From: Halapricum desulfuricans
Lineage (GTDB): Archaea; Halobacteriota; Halobacteria; Halobacteriales; Haloarculaceae
Direction: 5' to 3'
Length of the DNA: 64,000 nt
Assembly (NCBI RefSeq): GCF_017094505.1
Contig: NZ_CP064787.1
Location: 1,488,001 to 1,552,000, forward strand
Positions 1 through 27,313 of this stretch are shown piece after piece; the stretch's first letter is position 1, and each line of letters opens with the position of its first letter. The notes under the pieces were generated by a model that was not told the origin of the DNA, did no database searches, and saw only the letters and a list, made by a program, of their open reading frames with translations. The position numbers were made by a program, and so were the translations under genes.

Positions 1-905
1 CCGCGCTTGGGCGCGATCGAGTCGATCTCGTCGATGAAGACGATCGCCGGCGCGTTCTCCTCGGCCTCGTCGAAGACCTCGCGGAGTTGCTCTTCGCTCT
101 CGCCGTAGAACTTCGACATGATCTCCGGGCCCGAGATCGTCGTGAAGTAGGCGTCGATCTCGTTGGCGACGGCTTTCGCCATCAGCGTCTTGCCGGTTCC
201 CGGCGGGCCGTGCAGCAAGACGCCCTTGGGGGGTTCGATCCCCAGCTGCTGGAAGAGCTCGGGGTGGCGCATCGGGAGTTCGATCATTTCCCGGACCTGT
301 TCGAGTTCCTCGTCCAGCCCACCGATGTCCTCGTAGGTGACGCTCGGCGTCTCTCGCTCGTCCTGCTGGGGGCCACCGGTGATCTGCTCGGCCGGCTGTT
401 CACTGATCTCGATCTCGGTCTGGTCGGTCACGACGACCGTTCCCTCGGGATCGGTCTCGGCGATCTTCAGCGGGATCTTCTGCCCGCCGACGTTCGAGAT
501 CGGGCCCAATCCCAGCGAGAACGGGACGGTCTGGCCCTGCGTGACGGCCTGACCGCTGAGCTTGTTGCGGACGTGGGGTGCGATGTTCCCGCGCACGCGG
601 AGGTTCTGCGGCAGCGCGACGGTGATCGACCGGGCGGGCTTGACATCGGCCTTTTCGATCTCGACGGTGTCGTCGATCCCGACGTTGGCCTCCTGACGGA
701 GTCGCCCGTCGATCCGGACGATCCCCTCGCCGCTGTCCTCGGGATAGCCCGGCCAGACGCGCGCGACGGCGCGACCGCCCTGGCGCCCCTCGAGGACGAT
801 GTAATCGCCGTTCTCCAGATCGAGTTCGTCCATCGCGACCCGATCGATCGCGGCGAGTCCCCGACCCGCGTCCTTCTGCTTGAGTGGTTTGACAGTGAGT
901 TTCAT
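1..905 (-). CDS. CDC48/VCP-type AAA+ ATPase, N-terminal part (runs off the window)
   Basis: ATP-driven unfoldase that extracts or remodels proteins in the cytoplasm. About 301 residues are visible, from ATG at 905 to the left edge. They cover the CDC48 N-domain (about residues 1-180, double-psi barrel type), a linker with [21 protein letters not shown], the Walker A motif GPPGTGKT and the Walker B region VFIDEID. The start codon overlaps the stop of the upstream small gene (ATGA at 902-905), so the two are translationally coupled. The second AAA domain must lie outside the window. The family is certain; which of several haloarchaeal CDC48 paralogues this is cannot be told. Confidence 0.93.
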
Positions 906-1132
906 CGGTCCACCTCGACAGTGAGAACGCCGTTTCTGATAAACGCTCGTGCGTCCTCGCCCTCGGGAAGGTCCAGATCGTACTGCTCGGGCTCGGCGAC
1001 GACGATCACGGTGTCGCCGACAATCTCAGCCGTGGCGTCGCTCGTGCCCAGATCGGCCGCGAGAACGACGCTGTCCTCGTACTCGTAGCGGCTCACCGGC
1101 ACGTCTTCACTCAGCCGTTGCGTTGCAGTCAT
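902..1132 (-). CDS. small Hsp20-like acidic protein upstream of CDC48
   Basis: A 76-residue protein. The visible pattern (a short strand-rich domain with [24 protein letters not shown], ending GVLTVEVDR) looks like a minimal alpha-crystallin/Hsp20 fold without the N-terminal arm. From memory, haloarchaeal CDC48 genes often have such a partner (DUF7127-type), but I could not check this. The stop overlaps the CDC48 start by 4 nt. A TATA-like box lies at 1158-1168 and an inverted repeat at 1134-1148 sits between that box and the ATG. Probably a chaperone or adaptor for the AAA protein; that role is inferred from the operon. Confidence 0.8.
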
Positions 1133-1133
1133 G

Positions 1134-1168
1134 CTAACTCCAAGTTAGTAATACTAGTATATAAAACT
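1134..1168 (-). promoter_or_regulatory. promoter of the Hsp20-like/CDC48 operon with inverted repeat
   Basis: On the minus strand the box TTTTATATAC (1158-1168) lies about 30 nt before the ATG at 1132, the spacing of a leaderless haloarchaeal promoter. Between box and ATG is a perfect inverted repeat, CTAACT-3 nt-AGTTAG (1134-1148), placed where the transcription start should be. It could bind a dimeric repressor. Seen in sequence; function inferred. Confidence 0.6.
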
Positions 1169-1250
1169 TTCCTCAATTTGGTGGAGTACGGGGGTCATTC
1201 TGGCAACTACCGGTCGAATTGCGGTTCACATCCTGATCCGGGGGTTGGAG

Positions 1251-2060
1251 TCAGCGAATGTCGTCGATGTCGTCCTCGTAGTGGCTGTGTTCGTCGTCCG
1301 GAAATGCGCCCGACCGGACGGCGTCGACGTAGTCTTCGACGGCCGAGCGCATCTCGCCGCGGACGTCACCGAACGCCTTCGAGAAGGGCGCGACCGATTC
1401 GGAGAGGCCGATCACTTCGTCGACCGTCAGCACCTGTCCGTCGCAGTCGGGGCCGGCTCCGATCCCGATCGTGGGGATCGAGATCGCGTCGGTCACCTCG
1501 CTGGCGACGTTCGCGGGAACGTGTTCGAGCACCAGCGAGAACGCGCCCGCTCGCTCGTGTTTGTACGCCAGATCGAGGATCTGCGTCGCGGCGGACTCGT
1601 CAGTCCCCTGGCGGAACAGTCCCGTCTCGTTTTCGTGCTGCGGGGTCAATCCGAGATGCGCCTGAACGGGGATGCCGAGCTGGGTGAGCCGTTCGGTGAG
1701 TTTGACGGTGTGGGGCCCGGATTCGAGTTTGACGGCGTCTGCGTCGGCCTCCTTGAGCATCCGACCGGCGTGTTCGATCGCCTCGTCAGGATCGGCCCCG
1801 AAGGAGAGAAACGGCATGTCCGCGATGACCATCGGCTCGTCGGTCACCCGCGCGACCGCGGCCGTGTGACTGGCGATCTGATCGACGGTGACGGGAAGCG
1901 TCGAGTCGTAGCCCAGCCGGAGGTTCCCGACCGAGTCTCCGACCAGCAGCATGTCGACCCCGACGTCTTCGAGTATCTCGGCCGTCGGCGCGTCGTAGGC
2001 CGTGAGCATCGTCAGCGGCTCGTCATCGCCCTTCCGTTCCCGGATGTCCTTCGCGCGCAT
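1251..2060 (-). CDS. panB: 3-methyl-2-oxobutanoate hydroxymethyltransferase
   Basis: Transfers a hydroxymethyl group from methylenetetrahydrofolate to 2-oxoisovalerate to make ketopantoate, the first committed step of pantothenate/CoA synthesis. The 269-residue protein has the PanB hallmarks LTAYDAPTAEILEDVGVDMLLVGDS near the N-terminus (metal-binding Asp), VKLESG in the middle and PTIGIGAGPDCDGQVLV-like sequence (here QVLTVDEVIGL) near the C-terminus. The reading frame is open another 30 codons upstream, but that stretch is Arg/Ser/Pro-rich and unlike the family; ATG at 2060 gives the normal MRAKDIRERKG start. No operon partner; a divergent small membrane gene starts at 2159. Confidence 0.93.
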   Translation of the reverse strand: MRAKDIRERKGDDEPLTMLTAYDAPTAEILEDVGVDMLLVGDSVGNLRLGYDSTLPVTVDQIASHTAAVARVTDEPMVIADMPFLSFGADPDEAIEHAGRMLKEADADAVKLESGPHTVKLTERLTQLGIPVQAHLGLTPQHENETGLFRQGTDESAATQILDLAYKHERAGAFSLVLEHVPANVASEVTDAISIPTIGIGAGPDCDGQVLTVDEVIGLSESVAPFSKAFGDVRGEMRSAVEDYVDAVRSGAFPDDEHSHYEDDIDDIR

Positions 2061-2158
2061 GTGCAGTCGTTCGACCGCGGGAAGGAAAATCCTCCCGGTG
2101 GCGGGGGAGAACGTCCGGGATCGAAACCGATTCGAGTTCCGGGGCCACAACGACGGGT

Positions 2159-2407
2159 ATGCCAGCGCGCGTCGAGACGACCGATCCGGACGGGATCGAT
2201 TACGGGTGGGTCATGCAGGTCACGTTCGTCGCGACGATCGTCGCCGGTGCGCCGGTCGTCGCAGTCGCCTCGGCGTTCGTCGATCTCGCGTCGTGGGGAG
2301 CGCGCGCAACGTTCGCCGTCCGGGTCGGTGCCGTCGTCTGGTTCGTGACGGCCGTCGGCGTCTACGGTTACGCGCGCCGTCAGTCGAGCCGGTCCGAGAC
2401 CGACTGA
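2159..2407 (+). CDS. small two-helix membrane protein (possibly DUF5822 type)
   Basis: An 82-residue protein with two predicted membrane helices: about residues 18-42 (VMQVTFVATIVAGAPVVAVA) and 48-72 (ending VGAVVWFVTAVGVYGYARR). The N-terminal ETTDPDGIDYGWVMQ resembles a conserved haloarchaeal small membrane family I recall as DUF5822; no function is known to me. It is divergent from panB, and its 3' end overlaps the end of the convergent HAD gene by 28 bp. Confidence 0.7.
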   Translation: MPARVETTDPDGIDYGWVMQVTFVATIVAGAPVVAVASAFVDLASWGARATFAVRVGAVVWFVTAVGVYGYARRQSSRSETD

Positions 2408-2913
2408 AAGTCGACGCCGGCCCGTCGTGCCGTCTCGGCGTCGGACTCGGAGTCGCCGACGAACAGCGCGCGCTCCGGAGACACGTGCAGGGCAGAAAGG
2501 GCGGCGCGCAGCGGCTGTGGATGGGGCTTCGATTCTTCGACGGTGTCGCGCCCGATCAGCACGTCGACCGCGCTGTCCAATCCGTGGACTTCCAGCGCGA
2601 TCCGGCAGGCGGACTCGGCGTTCAGCGAGACGACGCCGGTCGGGCCGTCTCTTGGGAGTTCCTCCGCGAGCGCCAGTTTGCTGGAGGTGCGTGCCCCCTC
2701 GCGTTCGAACGCCGCAATTCGCCGCTCGGCGGTCGAATACTGTTCGGCCTCCTTCGCCCGATCGAGCAACTCCCAGAGGGTCGATCCGCCGGTCTCGATG
2801 CCTTTCGCCTCGAGGGCGGCGGCGACCCGCCGGCGGACCTCTCCCCAGTCGACGTCGAGATCGACCAGCGTCCCGTCGAGGTCGTAGACGACGGCGTCGT
2901 AGTCGTCGGTCAC
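2380..2913 (-). CDS. HAD-superfamily phosphatase (phosphoglycolate phosphatase-like)
   Basis: A 177-residue HAD hydrolase. Motif I is VVYDLDGTLVDLD (nucleophile Asp and acid/base Asp, about residues 7-19); motif III Lys is in ESKPHPQPL; motif IV is LFVGDSESDAETARRAGV. A small helical cap lies between motifs I and II, as in the Gph/PGP class. The substrate cannot be read from sequence: phosphoglycolate or another small phosphate ester is likely. It lies 5 bp downstream of aMBF1 on the same strand and is probably cotranscribed. Confidence 0.85.
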   Translation of the reverse strand: MTDDYDAVVYDLDGTLVDLDVDWGEVRRRVAAALEAKGIETGGSTLWELLDRAKEAEQYSTAERRIAAFEREGARTSSKLALAEELPRDGPTGVVSLNAESACRIALEVHGLDSAVDVLIGRDTVEESKPHPQPLRAALSALHVSPERALFVGDSESDAETARRAGVDFQSVSDRLD

Positions 2914-2918
2914 GGGTC

Positions 2919-3419
2919 TCAGGTGTCGGCCAGTTCGACGTCCAGCCGGTCCTCGAGGGCGGTGATGACGGAGCCGCCGACCCCGGCCTGGGTCGCCCGG
3001 CCCTGTTCGACCGCAAGCAGTTCCGATTCGTCGACGCCGAGCTCCTCGGCCAGTTCTTCGCGCTGAAGGCCGGCGTCCTGTCGCGCCTCGGTGACGCGTC
3101 GGCCGTAGTCGGTGACGAGATACGGCAGTTGATCGTCGTCGTAGTCGGCACCCTCCTCCCAGTGGGAGGCGTCGGCCTGCTGTGCGTCGTGGATCCGGGC
3201 CGCGTTCTGTGCGGCGCGTTTCTCCCGGCTGGGTTCGTCGTCGGGAGCCCCCCCGCCGGAGGTGCCCTTCGCGTCGTCGCGATGCTGGGCGCAGCTCGCA
3301 CAGACCTGCAGTTGTGCGCCGGCGATGTTGACCGTCTGCAGCGAGGCGTCGGTCGCGCCGCAGAGCTCACAGCTCCCGCCGGTGTCATCCGACCCGCCAC
3401 CGGTCGAGTATTTTGCCAT
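2919..3419 (-). CDS. archaeal multiprotein bridging factor aMBF1 (zinc ribbon + HTH)
   Basis: A 166-residue protein with an N-terminal zinc ribbon (CELC at about 19-22 paired with CASC about 20 residues later), a charged linker with Lys/Arg, and a C-terminal Cro/C1-type helix-turn-helix (AGLQREELAEELGVDESELLAVEQG). This is the standard MBF1 layout; MBF1 in archaea associates with ribosomes and basal transcription. ATG at 3419 gives the usual MAKYS-like start; the frame is open 18 codons further but that extension is atypical. Likely cotranscribed with the HAD gene. Confidence 0.9.
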   Translation of the reverse strand: MAKYSTGGGSDDTGGSCELCGATDASLQTVNIAGAQLQVCASCAQHRDDAKGTSGGGAPDDEPSREKRAAQNAARIHDAQQADASHWEEGADYDDDQLPYLVTDYGRRVTEARQDAGLQREELAEELGVDESELLAVEQGRATQAGVGGSVITALEDRLDVELADT

Positions 3420-3562: not shown

Positions 3563-3647
<85 letters not shown>

Positions 3648-3936
3648 TTTTTGCCACGAGCAAACTCGCGAGTGGCAAATTCGTTCAGCGGATTTGAACC
3701 CTAGAAGGAACGCGCAGCGAACGAAGTGAGCGAGCATTTCTTCGTCCGGTTCGAATCCGGTCCCACGCATTGCTGTCGCTCGCAAATCCGCGAGCGACTG
3801 TTATCGTCAGCGGATTCGAACCAGACGAGTCGCAGCCCGCGCAGCGAAGCGAGCAGGACCGTCTCGGCGAGGTTCGAATCCGGTCCCACGCATGTTTGCC
3901 ACGAGCAAACTCGCGAGTGGCAAATTCGTTCAGCGG
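3648..3936 (+). repeat. tandem repeat units carrying the tRNA-Leu 3' end
   Basis: Two complete units (3648-3769, 122 bp; 3770-3892, 123 bp) and a partial third (3893-3936). Each full unit has (1) a hairpin just after the tRNA end (e.g. 3651-3678, TTGCCAC...GTGGCAA), (2) an inverted copy of the T-arm core (ggatttgaacc 3690-3700; ggattcgaacc 3812-3822), and (3) a direct copy of the tRNA 3' end including ggttcgaatcc and cccacgca (ending 3769 and 3892). The first 42 bp of the third unit (3895-3936) are identical to 3650-3691. This fills the stretch between tRNA-Leu and tRNA-Thr; I see no credible gene in it. Confidence 0.85.
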
Positions 3937-6013: not shown

Positions 6014-6031
6014 GCTGGCCCAAAGGGGAGT

Positions 6032-18951: not shown

Positions 18952-19026
18952 GCTCTGGTGGTGTAGTCCGGCCAATCATATTGCCCTCTCACGGCAATGA
19001 CCAGGGTTCAAATCCCTGCCGGAGCA
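18952..19026 (+). tRNA. tRNA-Glu (anticodon CTC)
   Basis: A 75-nt tRNA. Acceptor GCTCTGG pairs with CCGGAGC (one G-U), discriminator A at 19026. Anticodon arm TTGCC-CTCTCAC-GGCAA gives CTC. T arm CAGGGTTCAAATCCCTG. No intron is visible. Its 3' end is repeated at 19113-19135. Confidence 0.95.
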
Positions 19027-19135
19027 CTTTTGCGACGAACAAATTCGTGAGTCGCAAGCGCTTTCGTAGGATTTGAACCACGCAAACGTGAGCGGAGCGA
19101 GCGTTTGCCATCGGGTTCAAATCCCTGCCGGAGCA
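19027..19135 (+). repeat. repeat unit carrying the tRNA-Glu 3' end
   Basis: A 109-bp unit with the same order of parts as the tRNA-Leu array: a 28-nt hairpin (19030-19057, TTGCGAC...GTCGCAA), an inverted T-arm core ggatttgaacc (19069-19079), an inner inverted repeat gcaaacg/cgtttgc, then a direct copy of the T arm (ggttcaaatcc 19114-19124) and of the 3' acceptor end (to 19135). Its hairpin differs from the tRNA-Leu one at five of 28 positions, four of them in two paired, compensating changes. Confidence 0.85.
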
Positions 19136-19530
19136 CGCCTCTTTTGTGGCGTTTGTGGGTTCTCGGGTGCGAACGACCATCCAGAAACCCTGAACGGGGG
19201 CAGTCGACTCAAACGGGGGCAGTCGACTCAACGTGTTCGGGCTATACCGACTCATACGGACCGGCGTCGCAATGTACCGGTCAGAGCCGACCCCAGAGTC
19301 AGCGTTTGCCGAAAAAATCTACAACGGTCCGTGTCATAGTAGTTGCTGTAACGATCTACCGGTGTGACCGGACATCGTCGTGCAGTCAACCCGGAACAGA
19401 CGTACAGCAACCACGATCAATCATGCGATTACTCGTCGGATTTCGGCTACCGCTGTGGCGACTGTGAGAGGGTCAGCGAGAGTCGGTGACATGGACCAAA
19501 CAGTAAGGGCCTGCCGAAACAACACCCAGT
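19136..19530 (+). other. 395-bp stretch without a gene, holding short repeats
   Basis: I see no credible ORF. It holds a perfect tandem duplication of a 19-bp unit (aacgggggcagtcgactca, 19193-19211 and 19212-19230), and copy A of an imperfect direct repeat (19345-19414) whose copy B follows the next gene at 20052-20121. Confidence 0.6.
19345..19414 (+). repeat. direct repeat copy A flanking the 170-aa gene
   Basis: Aligns without gaps to 20052-20121, at a constant offset of 707 bp; 46 of 59 bases match over the core 19348-19406. Shared blocks include gtaacgat, taccggtg, gtcgtgc and gacgtaca. It lies about 115 bp before the gene at 19531. Confidence 0.65.
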
Positions 19531-26236: not shown

Positions 26237-27313
26237 TTAGTCGAGGTAGTTACGGCGCGATTCCATCCGTTTCAGGAGGTCCGGCTGATCGTAGTGCGTC
26301 CGAATGACCTCAGGGGTCGCGTTCACGCGCTCGGCCAGCACTTCCGGCGGCCAGCCTTCGTCGCGATGATGCGTGATCGAGCCCGTCCGGATCCGGTGAG
26401 GAGATCGTGACGACGGGCAGCGCGATTCGTAGCCGTGTTCCAGCGCTTCGCAGGTGTCCGTATCTCTGTCGTGGGGACAGGGGCCGTACCGACACGGCTG
26501 GGTGATGATGTGCATCCGAGTTCGAAGGCCGCCCTTCGACATGCGGCCGGTCCCGCGCTGGCTGGAGAACAGGGGCTTGCGTCCGTGTTCGTCCTCGGCC
26601 TCGACGCGGTTGTACTCGATGTAGTCCTGGAGCAGCTGGCCGATCTCGTCGGAGAGGCCGACCGGTCGCTCACCGTCCTCTTGATTCTTCAGCGGTGTGT
26701 CCGTCTCCGGTCGGTGCCGGAAGTACAGGAACGGCAGGCTGAACTCGTCGAGGTCTTCGCTCGCGAGGTCGTCCTCGTGAAGGAGTCGGTCGAGATCGTC
26801 GTCGTCCAGGTAACAGTCGCGCACGTCGAGCGAGCACAGCGATCCGAGACGCGCGCCCGTGTGCCACGCCAGCGCGAACAGCACGTGGTCACGGCTCGCG
26901 TAGTCGAAGGTTTCGAGCTTCGAGAGGATTTCCTTCGCGCGCTTCGCGGAGATCTTCTCTTCATTCGCTCGTTCGGCCTTCGAGAGTGTCGGCACATCCA
27001 CCTTCGCAGGTAGTTCCGCCGGCACTGCTTCGACCTGAGCACAGAACTGCAGGAAGAGTTTGACTGTGCCGAGTTGGTTATTCAGCGCGCTCTTACTGAG
27101 GCCGTCACTCCGTCGCTTCGAGTCGTACCGGAACACGTCGCGCCCGGTGAGGTCGTTCAAGTTCGTGATACCCTGGTCCTCGAGCCAGTCCACGAACTGC
27201 CGAACTCGATAGTAGTAGCTCTGTACTGTGCCGTCGGATTTCTCGGTCTTCTGCCGATCTGTCCATAGCTCCAGCGCTTCGCGCGGGTGGAGCGAATCGA
27301 GATCGTCAGTCAT
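26237..27313 (-). CDS. tyrosine recombinase (integrase)
   Basis: A 358-residue integrase lying just inside attL. N-terminal SAM-like core-binding domain (about 8-105, TVQSYYYRVRQFVDWL), catalytic domain with Arg in HTGARLGSLCSLD (about R155), HRIR (H306-x-x-R309) in the C-terminal box, and the nucleophile Tyr in THYDQPD (about Y341). Between the boxes lies a Cys/His-rich insertion (CRYGPCPHDRDTDTCEAL ... RC), a feature of haloarchaeal integrases that may bind zinc. Catalytic residues are intact, so the element could still excise. Confidence 0.9.
   Translation of the reverse strand: MTDDLDSLHPREALELWTDRQKTEKSDGTVQSYYYRVRQFVDWLEDQGITNLNDLTGRDVFRYDSKRRSDGLSKSALNNQLGTVKLFLQFCAQVEAVPAELPAKVDVPTLSKAERANEEKISAKRAKEILSKLETFDYASRDHVLFALAWHTGARLGSLCSLDVRDCYLDDDDLDRLLHEDDLASEDLDEFSLPFLYFRHRPETDTPLKNQEDGERPVGLSDEIGQLLQDYIEYNRVEAEDEHGRKPLFSSQRGTGRMSKGGLRTRMHIITQPCRYGPCPHDRDTDTCEALEHGYESRCPSSRSPHRIRTGSITHHRDEGWPPEVLAERVNATPEVIRTHYDQPDLLKRMESRRNYLD

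Follow-up and report, generated by a model that had tools for sequence, protein, structure and literature searches.

Behind a tRNA-Glu gene of the haloarchaeon Halapricum desulfuricans stands a unit of 109 nucleotides that ends in a second copy of the tRNA's own 3' end, and a similar arrangement stands behind tRNA-Leu. What are these units, and how did they come to lie there? We examined a 64,000-nucleotide stretch of the genome (contig NZ_CP064787.1, positions 1,488,001 to 1,552,000), referred to as the window, and compared its units with those of other genomes. A sequence-only reading of the window had suggested either selection for structure or a mechanism that copies whichever tRNA end is present.

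Anatomy of the Glu and Leu units

When the parts of the units were mapped at both loci (Table 1), they followed one fixed order, which bore out the earlier observation that the two loci are built alike: HP1, T* (an inverted copy of the T-arm), HP2, and T' (a direct copy of tRNA positions 53 to 73). The tRNA-Glu end is a perfect 24-nucleotide direct repeat (19004 to 19027 and 19113 to 19136, spacing 109), and the 5' side of HP1 overlaps the T-run behind the tRNA. The Leu locus consists of two full units and a third tRNA end with an HP1 copy behind it; judged by its sequence, this copy may be a trailer or a truncated unit.

The 28-nucleotide HP1 sequences of Glu and Leu differ at exactly the five positions counted before, four of them in two swapped pairs (C-G to G-C at 5/24, G-C to A-T at 10/19) and the fifth at loop base 15. 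The paired changes fit a hairpin with a stem, a GA/GA tandem G.A mismatch, 2 bp, and a 6-nucleotide loop. By inspection, both HP1 and HP2 carry tandem G.A mismatches in a Y-GA-R context on the tRNA strand. Folded as RNA, the Glu unit reached -50.5 kcal/mol (z = -5.66; 0 of 200 shuffles were equally good) and the opposite strand -43.9 (z = -4.04). In an Rfam 15 gathering search of the window only two tRNAs reached the cut-off, and no family for the unit was found.

Two further features of the window were noted. The 19-nucleotide sequence AACGGGGGCAGTCGACTCA stands in two perfect tandem copies directly behind the Glu unit (19193 to 19230), one of which is apparently absent in the relative G069. 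A weak match to a tyrosine integrase domain lies at 26504 to 26953 on the minus strand (G000:C1:1514504-1514953).

Table 1. Parts of the tRNA-Glu and tRNA-Leu loci, in window positions
Feature	Positions	Strand	Remarks
tRNA-Glu(CTC), anchor gene	18952..19026	+	ARAGORN, Rfam; tRNA positions 53-73 = 19006-19026
HP1, Glu unit	19030..19057	+	stem, tandem GA mismatch, 2 bp, 6-nt loop
T*, Glu unit	19068..19079	+	inverted copy of tRNA T-loop and 3' T-stem
HP2, Glu unit	19080..19114	+	ACG...CATCG class; GA on tRNA strand
T', Glu unit	19115..19135	+	direct copy of tRNA-Glu positions 53-73
tRNA-Leu(GAG), anchor of second array	3563..3647	+	ARAGORN; positions 53-73 = 3627-3647
HP1a, Leu unit 1	3650..3679	+	
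T*, Leu unit 1	3689..3700	+	A57 type; one mismatch to tRNA
HP2a, Leu unit 1	3701..3748	+	CCT..TCCG class
T', Leu unit 1	3749..3769	+	
HP1b, Leu unit 2	3775..3798	+	
T*, Leu unit 2	3811..3822	+	
HP2b, Leu unit 2	3823..3871	+	orthologous unit retained in relative G069
T', Leu unit 2	3872..3892	+	
Third HP1 copy behind last tRNA end of Leu array	3895..3924	+	near-identical to HP1a

Copying of the resident tRNA end

Unit boundaries were profiled with 105 units lying within 150 nucleotides of a tRNA. Between positions 53 and 73, T' agrees with the tRNA at rates of 88 to 100%; on either side of this segment, identity drops to that of shuffled pairs or nearly so. For T*, agreement with its own tRNA reaches 0.89, 0.71, 0.65, and 0.44 at positions 57, 62, 63, and 64, compared with 0.57, 0.48, 0.30, and 0.27 for other tRNAs; it ends at position 64, and T* is mismatched in places. 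The claim that the T-arm stem is rebuilt from the new tRNA was right in part: T* of the Glu unit matches tRNA-Glu at positions 53 to 62, which covers less than the complete T stem.

Copying of the tRNA end was supported more broadly, both by T', which is about 93% identical to the resident tRNA from 53 to 73, and by T*, which outperformed permuted pairings. In a T*-independent test with 60 units defined from the tRNA copies alone, the summed match of T* to its own tRNA was 587, compared with 524.6 ± 6.2 when tRNAs were permuted, a difference of 10 SD. Where the T-loop is odd, as in Asn (GTTCGAGTCC) and Lys(TTT) (GTTCAATTCC), the T* copies bear the same odd bases. Complementarity between the stretch before T* and tRNA positions 64 to 73 was weak (5 of 200 permutations were equally good) and is not relied on.

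Many units have a T' that reads GGTTCACAATCC, with one extra C within the T-loop relative to the tRNA. This form occurs in 27 of 86 genomes and 14 of 22 genera of the family, at unrelated tRNAs and HP2 classes, for example at Pro, Val-TAC, Thr-TGT, and Ile of the window genome (G000) and Phe of G069 (L189, L176, L186, L167, and L198). The extra C may mark the exchange point or may be an unpaired base.

Structural constraint and strand preference

The suggested selection for structure was evaluated with a covariation test on 23 distinct units, taken from many genera and tRNAs and aligned without gaps (67 columns, 49-nucleotide HP2). Covariation in HP2 was strong. Paired cells made up 96.1%, compared with 83.7 ± 1.1 in shuffled controls; double-change cells numbered 61, compared with 18.4 ± 3.6 after shuffling and no more than 11 after sliding; and the covariation score was 0.346, compared with 0.112 ± 0.014 in the control. 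RNAalifold found nearly the same structure without guidance, and HP1 cores covary on the same pattern. Unpaired positions of HP2 are fixed (CT against TCC, T.T, and tandem GA), and the complementary positions beside these mismatches alternate among GC, CG, AU, and UA. Hairpin-templated mutation could give the double changes but should not keep the mismatches, and we read the HP2 pattern, as far as sequences tell, as probable selection on the fold of one strand, as RNA or as single-stranded DNA.

The favored strand is that of the tRNA. The YGAR motif lies on the tRNA strand in 145 cases versus 3 for HP2 and in 126 versus 15 for HP1, and with RNA parameters the sense strand of HP1 is the more stable in 112 cases versus 34. 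DNA energy parameters give a weak preference for one strand (83 of 151), less clear than that obtained with RNA parameters. The results thus support both structure selection and tRNA-end copying, which are compatible with each other.

Distribution in Halobacteria

The pattern GATTYGAAC-N25-55-GTTCRAATC, in which T* and T' stand face to face, was found in 328 of 391 Halobacteria genomes and 80 of 86 genera, and the reversed-pattern control gave 0. Among 312 genomes from the rest of the phylum, 3 had one match apiece. The pattern detects part of the units, namely, 8 places in the window genome, compared with 24 of 41 tRNAs occupied and 41 tRNA-end copies. A covariance model built on HP2 units from many genomes gave 32 matches in the window genome, 31 of them directly behind a tRNA on the same strand. 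The remaining match has no tRNA nearby; it follows a short repeat like a tRNA acceptor end, with a tyrosine integrase gene adjacent, and looks like a tRNA end displaced from its gene by a later element. The folded anatomy is uniform across 30 tRNA anticodon types, and a search with a narrow HP2 pattern gave matches in two records, both from Halobacteria.

The general hairpin motif CGARCNNNGYGAG was rejected as a marker of units; it occurs 449 times in the genome versus 238 for its reversed control, about a twofold excess, and is not locus-specific. A different tandem hairpin array, with nine copies of CGAGCGTAGCGAG at 59-bp spacing, lies away from the listed tRNAs (G000:C1:483818-484302).

Gain and loss of units in polar arrays

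Altogether 173 units were found at 116 tRNA loci, with at least two units at 42 of these and up to six tRNA ends in an array. Decay of T' is polar: in 23 arrays the first unit has a T' more like the tRNA than the last unit does, and the opposite holds in 1. Parts of units also reassort. One HP2 stands behind three different HP1s in one Met array, one HP1 precedes different HP2s elsewhere, and near-identical HP2s are found at different tRNAs and in different genomes. Tandem duplicates occur within arrays (L115, L127, and Leu-TAA), and some copies therefore arose without a fresh insertion.

Comparison of the window genome with its close relative G069 revealed discrete differences, which neither of the earlier suggestions had foreseen. 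Occupied tRNAs number 24 of 41 in the window genome and 14 of 41 in G069, and copy number differs at 9 of the 17 orthologous tRNA loci with both flanks matched. Val(GAC), with one unit in G069 and zero in the window genome, and Asn, with a unit in the window genome that is absent from G069, are clean pairs of empty and filled sites. Extra whole units distinguish the two at Leu(GAG), Leu(TAA), and Ser(TGA). At Leu(GAG), G069 is without exactly unit 1 of the window array, which indicates a tRNA-proximal gain (or a loss in G069). In G165, as read by eye, an additional unit separates tRNA-Glu from a unit similar to that of the window.

One HP2 behind tRNA-Phe of G002 (L095) is inverted between its T* and T'; orientation is otherwise near-fixed. 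An inversion between the two opposed T copies may be the cause.

Units as proposed integrative cassettes

Discrete gain and loss, polar order, target duplication, and reassortment are expected from site-specific recombination at a fixed docking site. We therefore lean toward the explanation that the units, at about 90 to 130 bp and without genes, form a Halobacteria-wide family of integrative cassettes which enter tRNA 3' ends through such recombination, with T*-HP2-T' as the folded site. Sequence comparison shows mobility, target duplication, and structural constraint; we infer the recombinase and the level, DNA or RNA, at which the units fold.

Integration would take place inside the T-loop, probably through a tyrosine recombinase acting in trans. 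Occupied sites do carry a duplicated tRNA 53-73, the freshest units are proximal to the tRNA with older ones farther away, and units come and go whole, leaving clean ends. By analogy with integron attC sites, the strand with T*-HP2-T' would be the folded recombination site, and the inverted T* would make T*-HP2-T' a hairpin in which the exchange region is double-stranded. Because T* must pair with the tRNA-derived T', it would track the host tRNA, and the hairpins would keep their shape as their sequence drifts. Since the cassette cuts the tRNA off from the trailer it had before, HP1 would replace that trailer and supply another T-rich terminator. A tRNA loop of seven bases flanked by palindromic stem arms looks like a tyrosine-recombinase core site, as argued for the anticodon arm (PMC8371274), and it is plausible, extending that argument, that the T-arm could serve as a recombination core. 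Tyrosine recombinases were present in eight of the eight genomes examined, and none of these common enzymes was singled out there as linked to the units.

A wider formulation is offered more tentatively. Halobacteria might possess a class-wide system in which the T-arm of any tRNA docks folded, single-stranded, gene-less cassettes, integron-like without the integron integrase, and the inverted copy of the host tRNA is renewed for each target.

Alternative explanations

One alternative is that the units are by-products of replication. Template switching at a folded-back T-arm would yield T*-HP2-T', quasipalindrome correction would maintain the complementary arms, and short-repeat recombination would spread and shuffle the pieces, with no dedicated recombinase and no function. 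An inverted copy combined with a direct copy of the tRNA has the fold-back geometry, the junction of Leu unit 1 lies at a shared CGG, the tandem duplicates mentioned above are of the kind expected, and hairpin-templated repair would make double changes in a single step. However, HP2 families are common to different tRNAs and genera, so HP2 is not locus-derived. Templated correction should also remove mismatches, yet invariant internal loops and tandem GA persist beside hypervariable complementary positions, and restriction of the units to Halobacteria is a further difficulty. We regard this origin as unlikely.

The strand preference, the strong covariation with fixed internal loops, and the nearly constant orientation behind the tRNA would all suit an element that acts as RNA. 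The unit would then be a structured 3' trailer of the pre-tRNA in which T* pairs with the tRNA T-arm or with T', HP1-T*-HP2-T' would be a folding or processing switch or the source of a small RNA, and selection on the RNA would keep the hairpins. This is quite unlikely to be the whole account, since it leaves unexplained the agreement of T' with the tRNA as far as position 73, nine past the end of the T* pairing, and many tRNAs have no unit while orthologous tRNAs freely gain and lose them. T-runs are established archaeal terminators, and the T-run directly behind the tRNA should stop most transcripts ahead of HP1.

It is very unlikely that the units are scars of ordinary tRNA-integrating elements, such as viruses and plasmids, whose interior disappeared while the attachment sites stayed in place, because a uniform folded anatomy at so many tRNA types is unexpected from random deletions. 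A duplication of 53-73 is indeed what classical attachment at tRNA genes leaves, these 3' ends are also used by integrated elements, and an integrase adjoins the displaced tRNA-end repeat described above. But ordinary elements attach elsewhere, through an anticodon-arm stretch of about 44 bp in G069 or through short acceptor-end repeats (L286 and L287), and they have no T*-HP2 of their own at the junctions that were read. In G069 a stretch of about 62 kb separates tRNA-Glu from its unit, which suggests that ordinary integrative elements are later, separate events. A search of IMG/VR virus contigs for the T*...T' pattern yielded 67 stretches, none of which resembles the haloarchaeal unit, and no intact element with such ends was found there.

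The best-folding IMG/VR stretches, considered as units and rejected, form a different palindrome around CATGGATTTGAACC. Near-perfect palindromes of this kind (CATGGATTTGAACC...GGTTCAAATCCATG), built on T-loop sequence, were seen in contigs L282, L233, L246, L259, L262, and L278; they are distinct from the haloarchaeal unit, and that of L282 overlaps a predicted tRNA-Gln. Tyrosine integrase genes with short acceptor-end-like repeats, each then followed by a unit, lie at 6030 to 7301 of L286 (about G000:C1 2008030-2009300) and 1400 to 2660 of L287, and their arrangement reads as probable later integration between a tRNA and its array. Behind a tRNA-Arg of G294 (L086, about 700 to 3050), two units are separated by an insert of 2.4 kb that contains, judged by eye, an enolase-superfamily-like gene and terminates in a short (about 12-nucleotide) copy of the tRNA acceptor end. 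SNJ2 reportedly integrates at similarly short attachment sites.

Comparison with known systems

The core consensus of integron attC sites is GTTRRRY/RYYYAAC. The unit core, GTTCRAA/TTYGAAC, agrees with it in the GTT/AAC triplets alone, the units are anchored on a tRNA T-arm rather than attI, and the roughly 70 to 150 nucleotides between tRNA copies leave no room for genes. The integron integrase model TIGR02249 had 0 of 116 Halobacteria above its cut-off and 0 matches in the window genome. One integron trait is present, a polar array at one attachment site. The fold of the putative recombination site and its conserved internal loops are backed by covariation, and recombination of the folded single strand would be a further parallel. 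Membership among the integrons fails because no integrase passes the cut-off, the core consensus differs, and genes are lacking. The likeness to integrons, including archaeal cases (PMC9668308), lies in polar arrays that grow at one fixed site, shuffled cassettes, and an imperfect hairpin with conserved unpaired positions, variable stems, and GTT/AAC at the presumed exchange point.

Haloquadratum walsbyi has small mobile repeats, SMR-A, that insert into IS605-type elements and PATEs and cause no target duplication (PMC3119063). Like the units, they are haloarchaeal, about 110 bp, non-coding, and palindromic, their mobilization mechanism is obscure, and their insertions sit within palindromes of their targets (PMC3119063). 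The units, in contrast, target tRNA 3' ends (31 of the 32 model matches) and make a 21-bp duplication. Classical tRNA-integrating elements likewise use the 3' part of the tRNA as target and leave a tRNA-end copy on the far side (PMC8371274). They carry their own integrase and a separate attachment stretch and span kilobases, whereas the units are gene-less, about 110 bp, and include an inverted T-arm copy.

Other tandem arrangements are less similar. The tyrT locus of Escherichia coli has tandem 178-bp repeats with the tRNA-Tyr 3' end (RtT RNA). They resemble the units in being tandem and each ending in a tRNA 3'-end copy, but they belong to a single enterobacterial locus. We know of no T*-HP2 anatomy in them. 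CRISPR arrays consist of direct repeats and grow at one end, and casposons may target tRNA 3' ends. The units share direct repeats, additions at one end, and possibly the tRNA 3'-end target; unlike in CRISPR, their repeat is the tRNA end and varies with each tRNA, and their "spacers" are shared hairpin families rather than foreign DNA.

Implications

No earlier description of haloarchaeal tRNA-end hairpin arrays was found in the open-access papers that were searched; the closest published counterparts are the SMR-A repeats, archaeal integrons, and tRNA integration in general. We place the units among non-autonomous integrative repeats, and what would be novel is the integron-like reading. If the cassette explanation is true, most haloarchaea harbor a mobile-DNA family that has so far been overlooked, seemingly because it is confined to the short intergenic tails of tRNA genes. 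Several questions would become testable: what enzyme carries out recombination at tRNA T-arms, what makes tRNA 3' ends such frequent sites of change in archaeal genomes, and whether recombination sites that fold as single strands have also evolved apart from integrons. The units would also explain the repeated partial tRNA ends in haloarchaeal genomes, which annotation and island-finding programs may mistake for attachment sites or pseudo-tRNAs.
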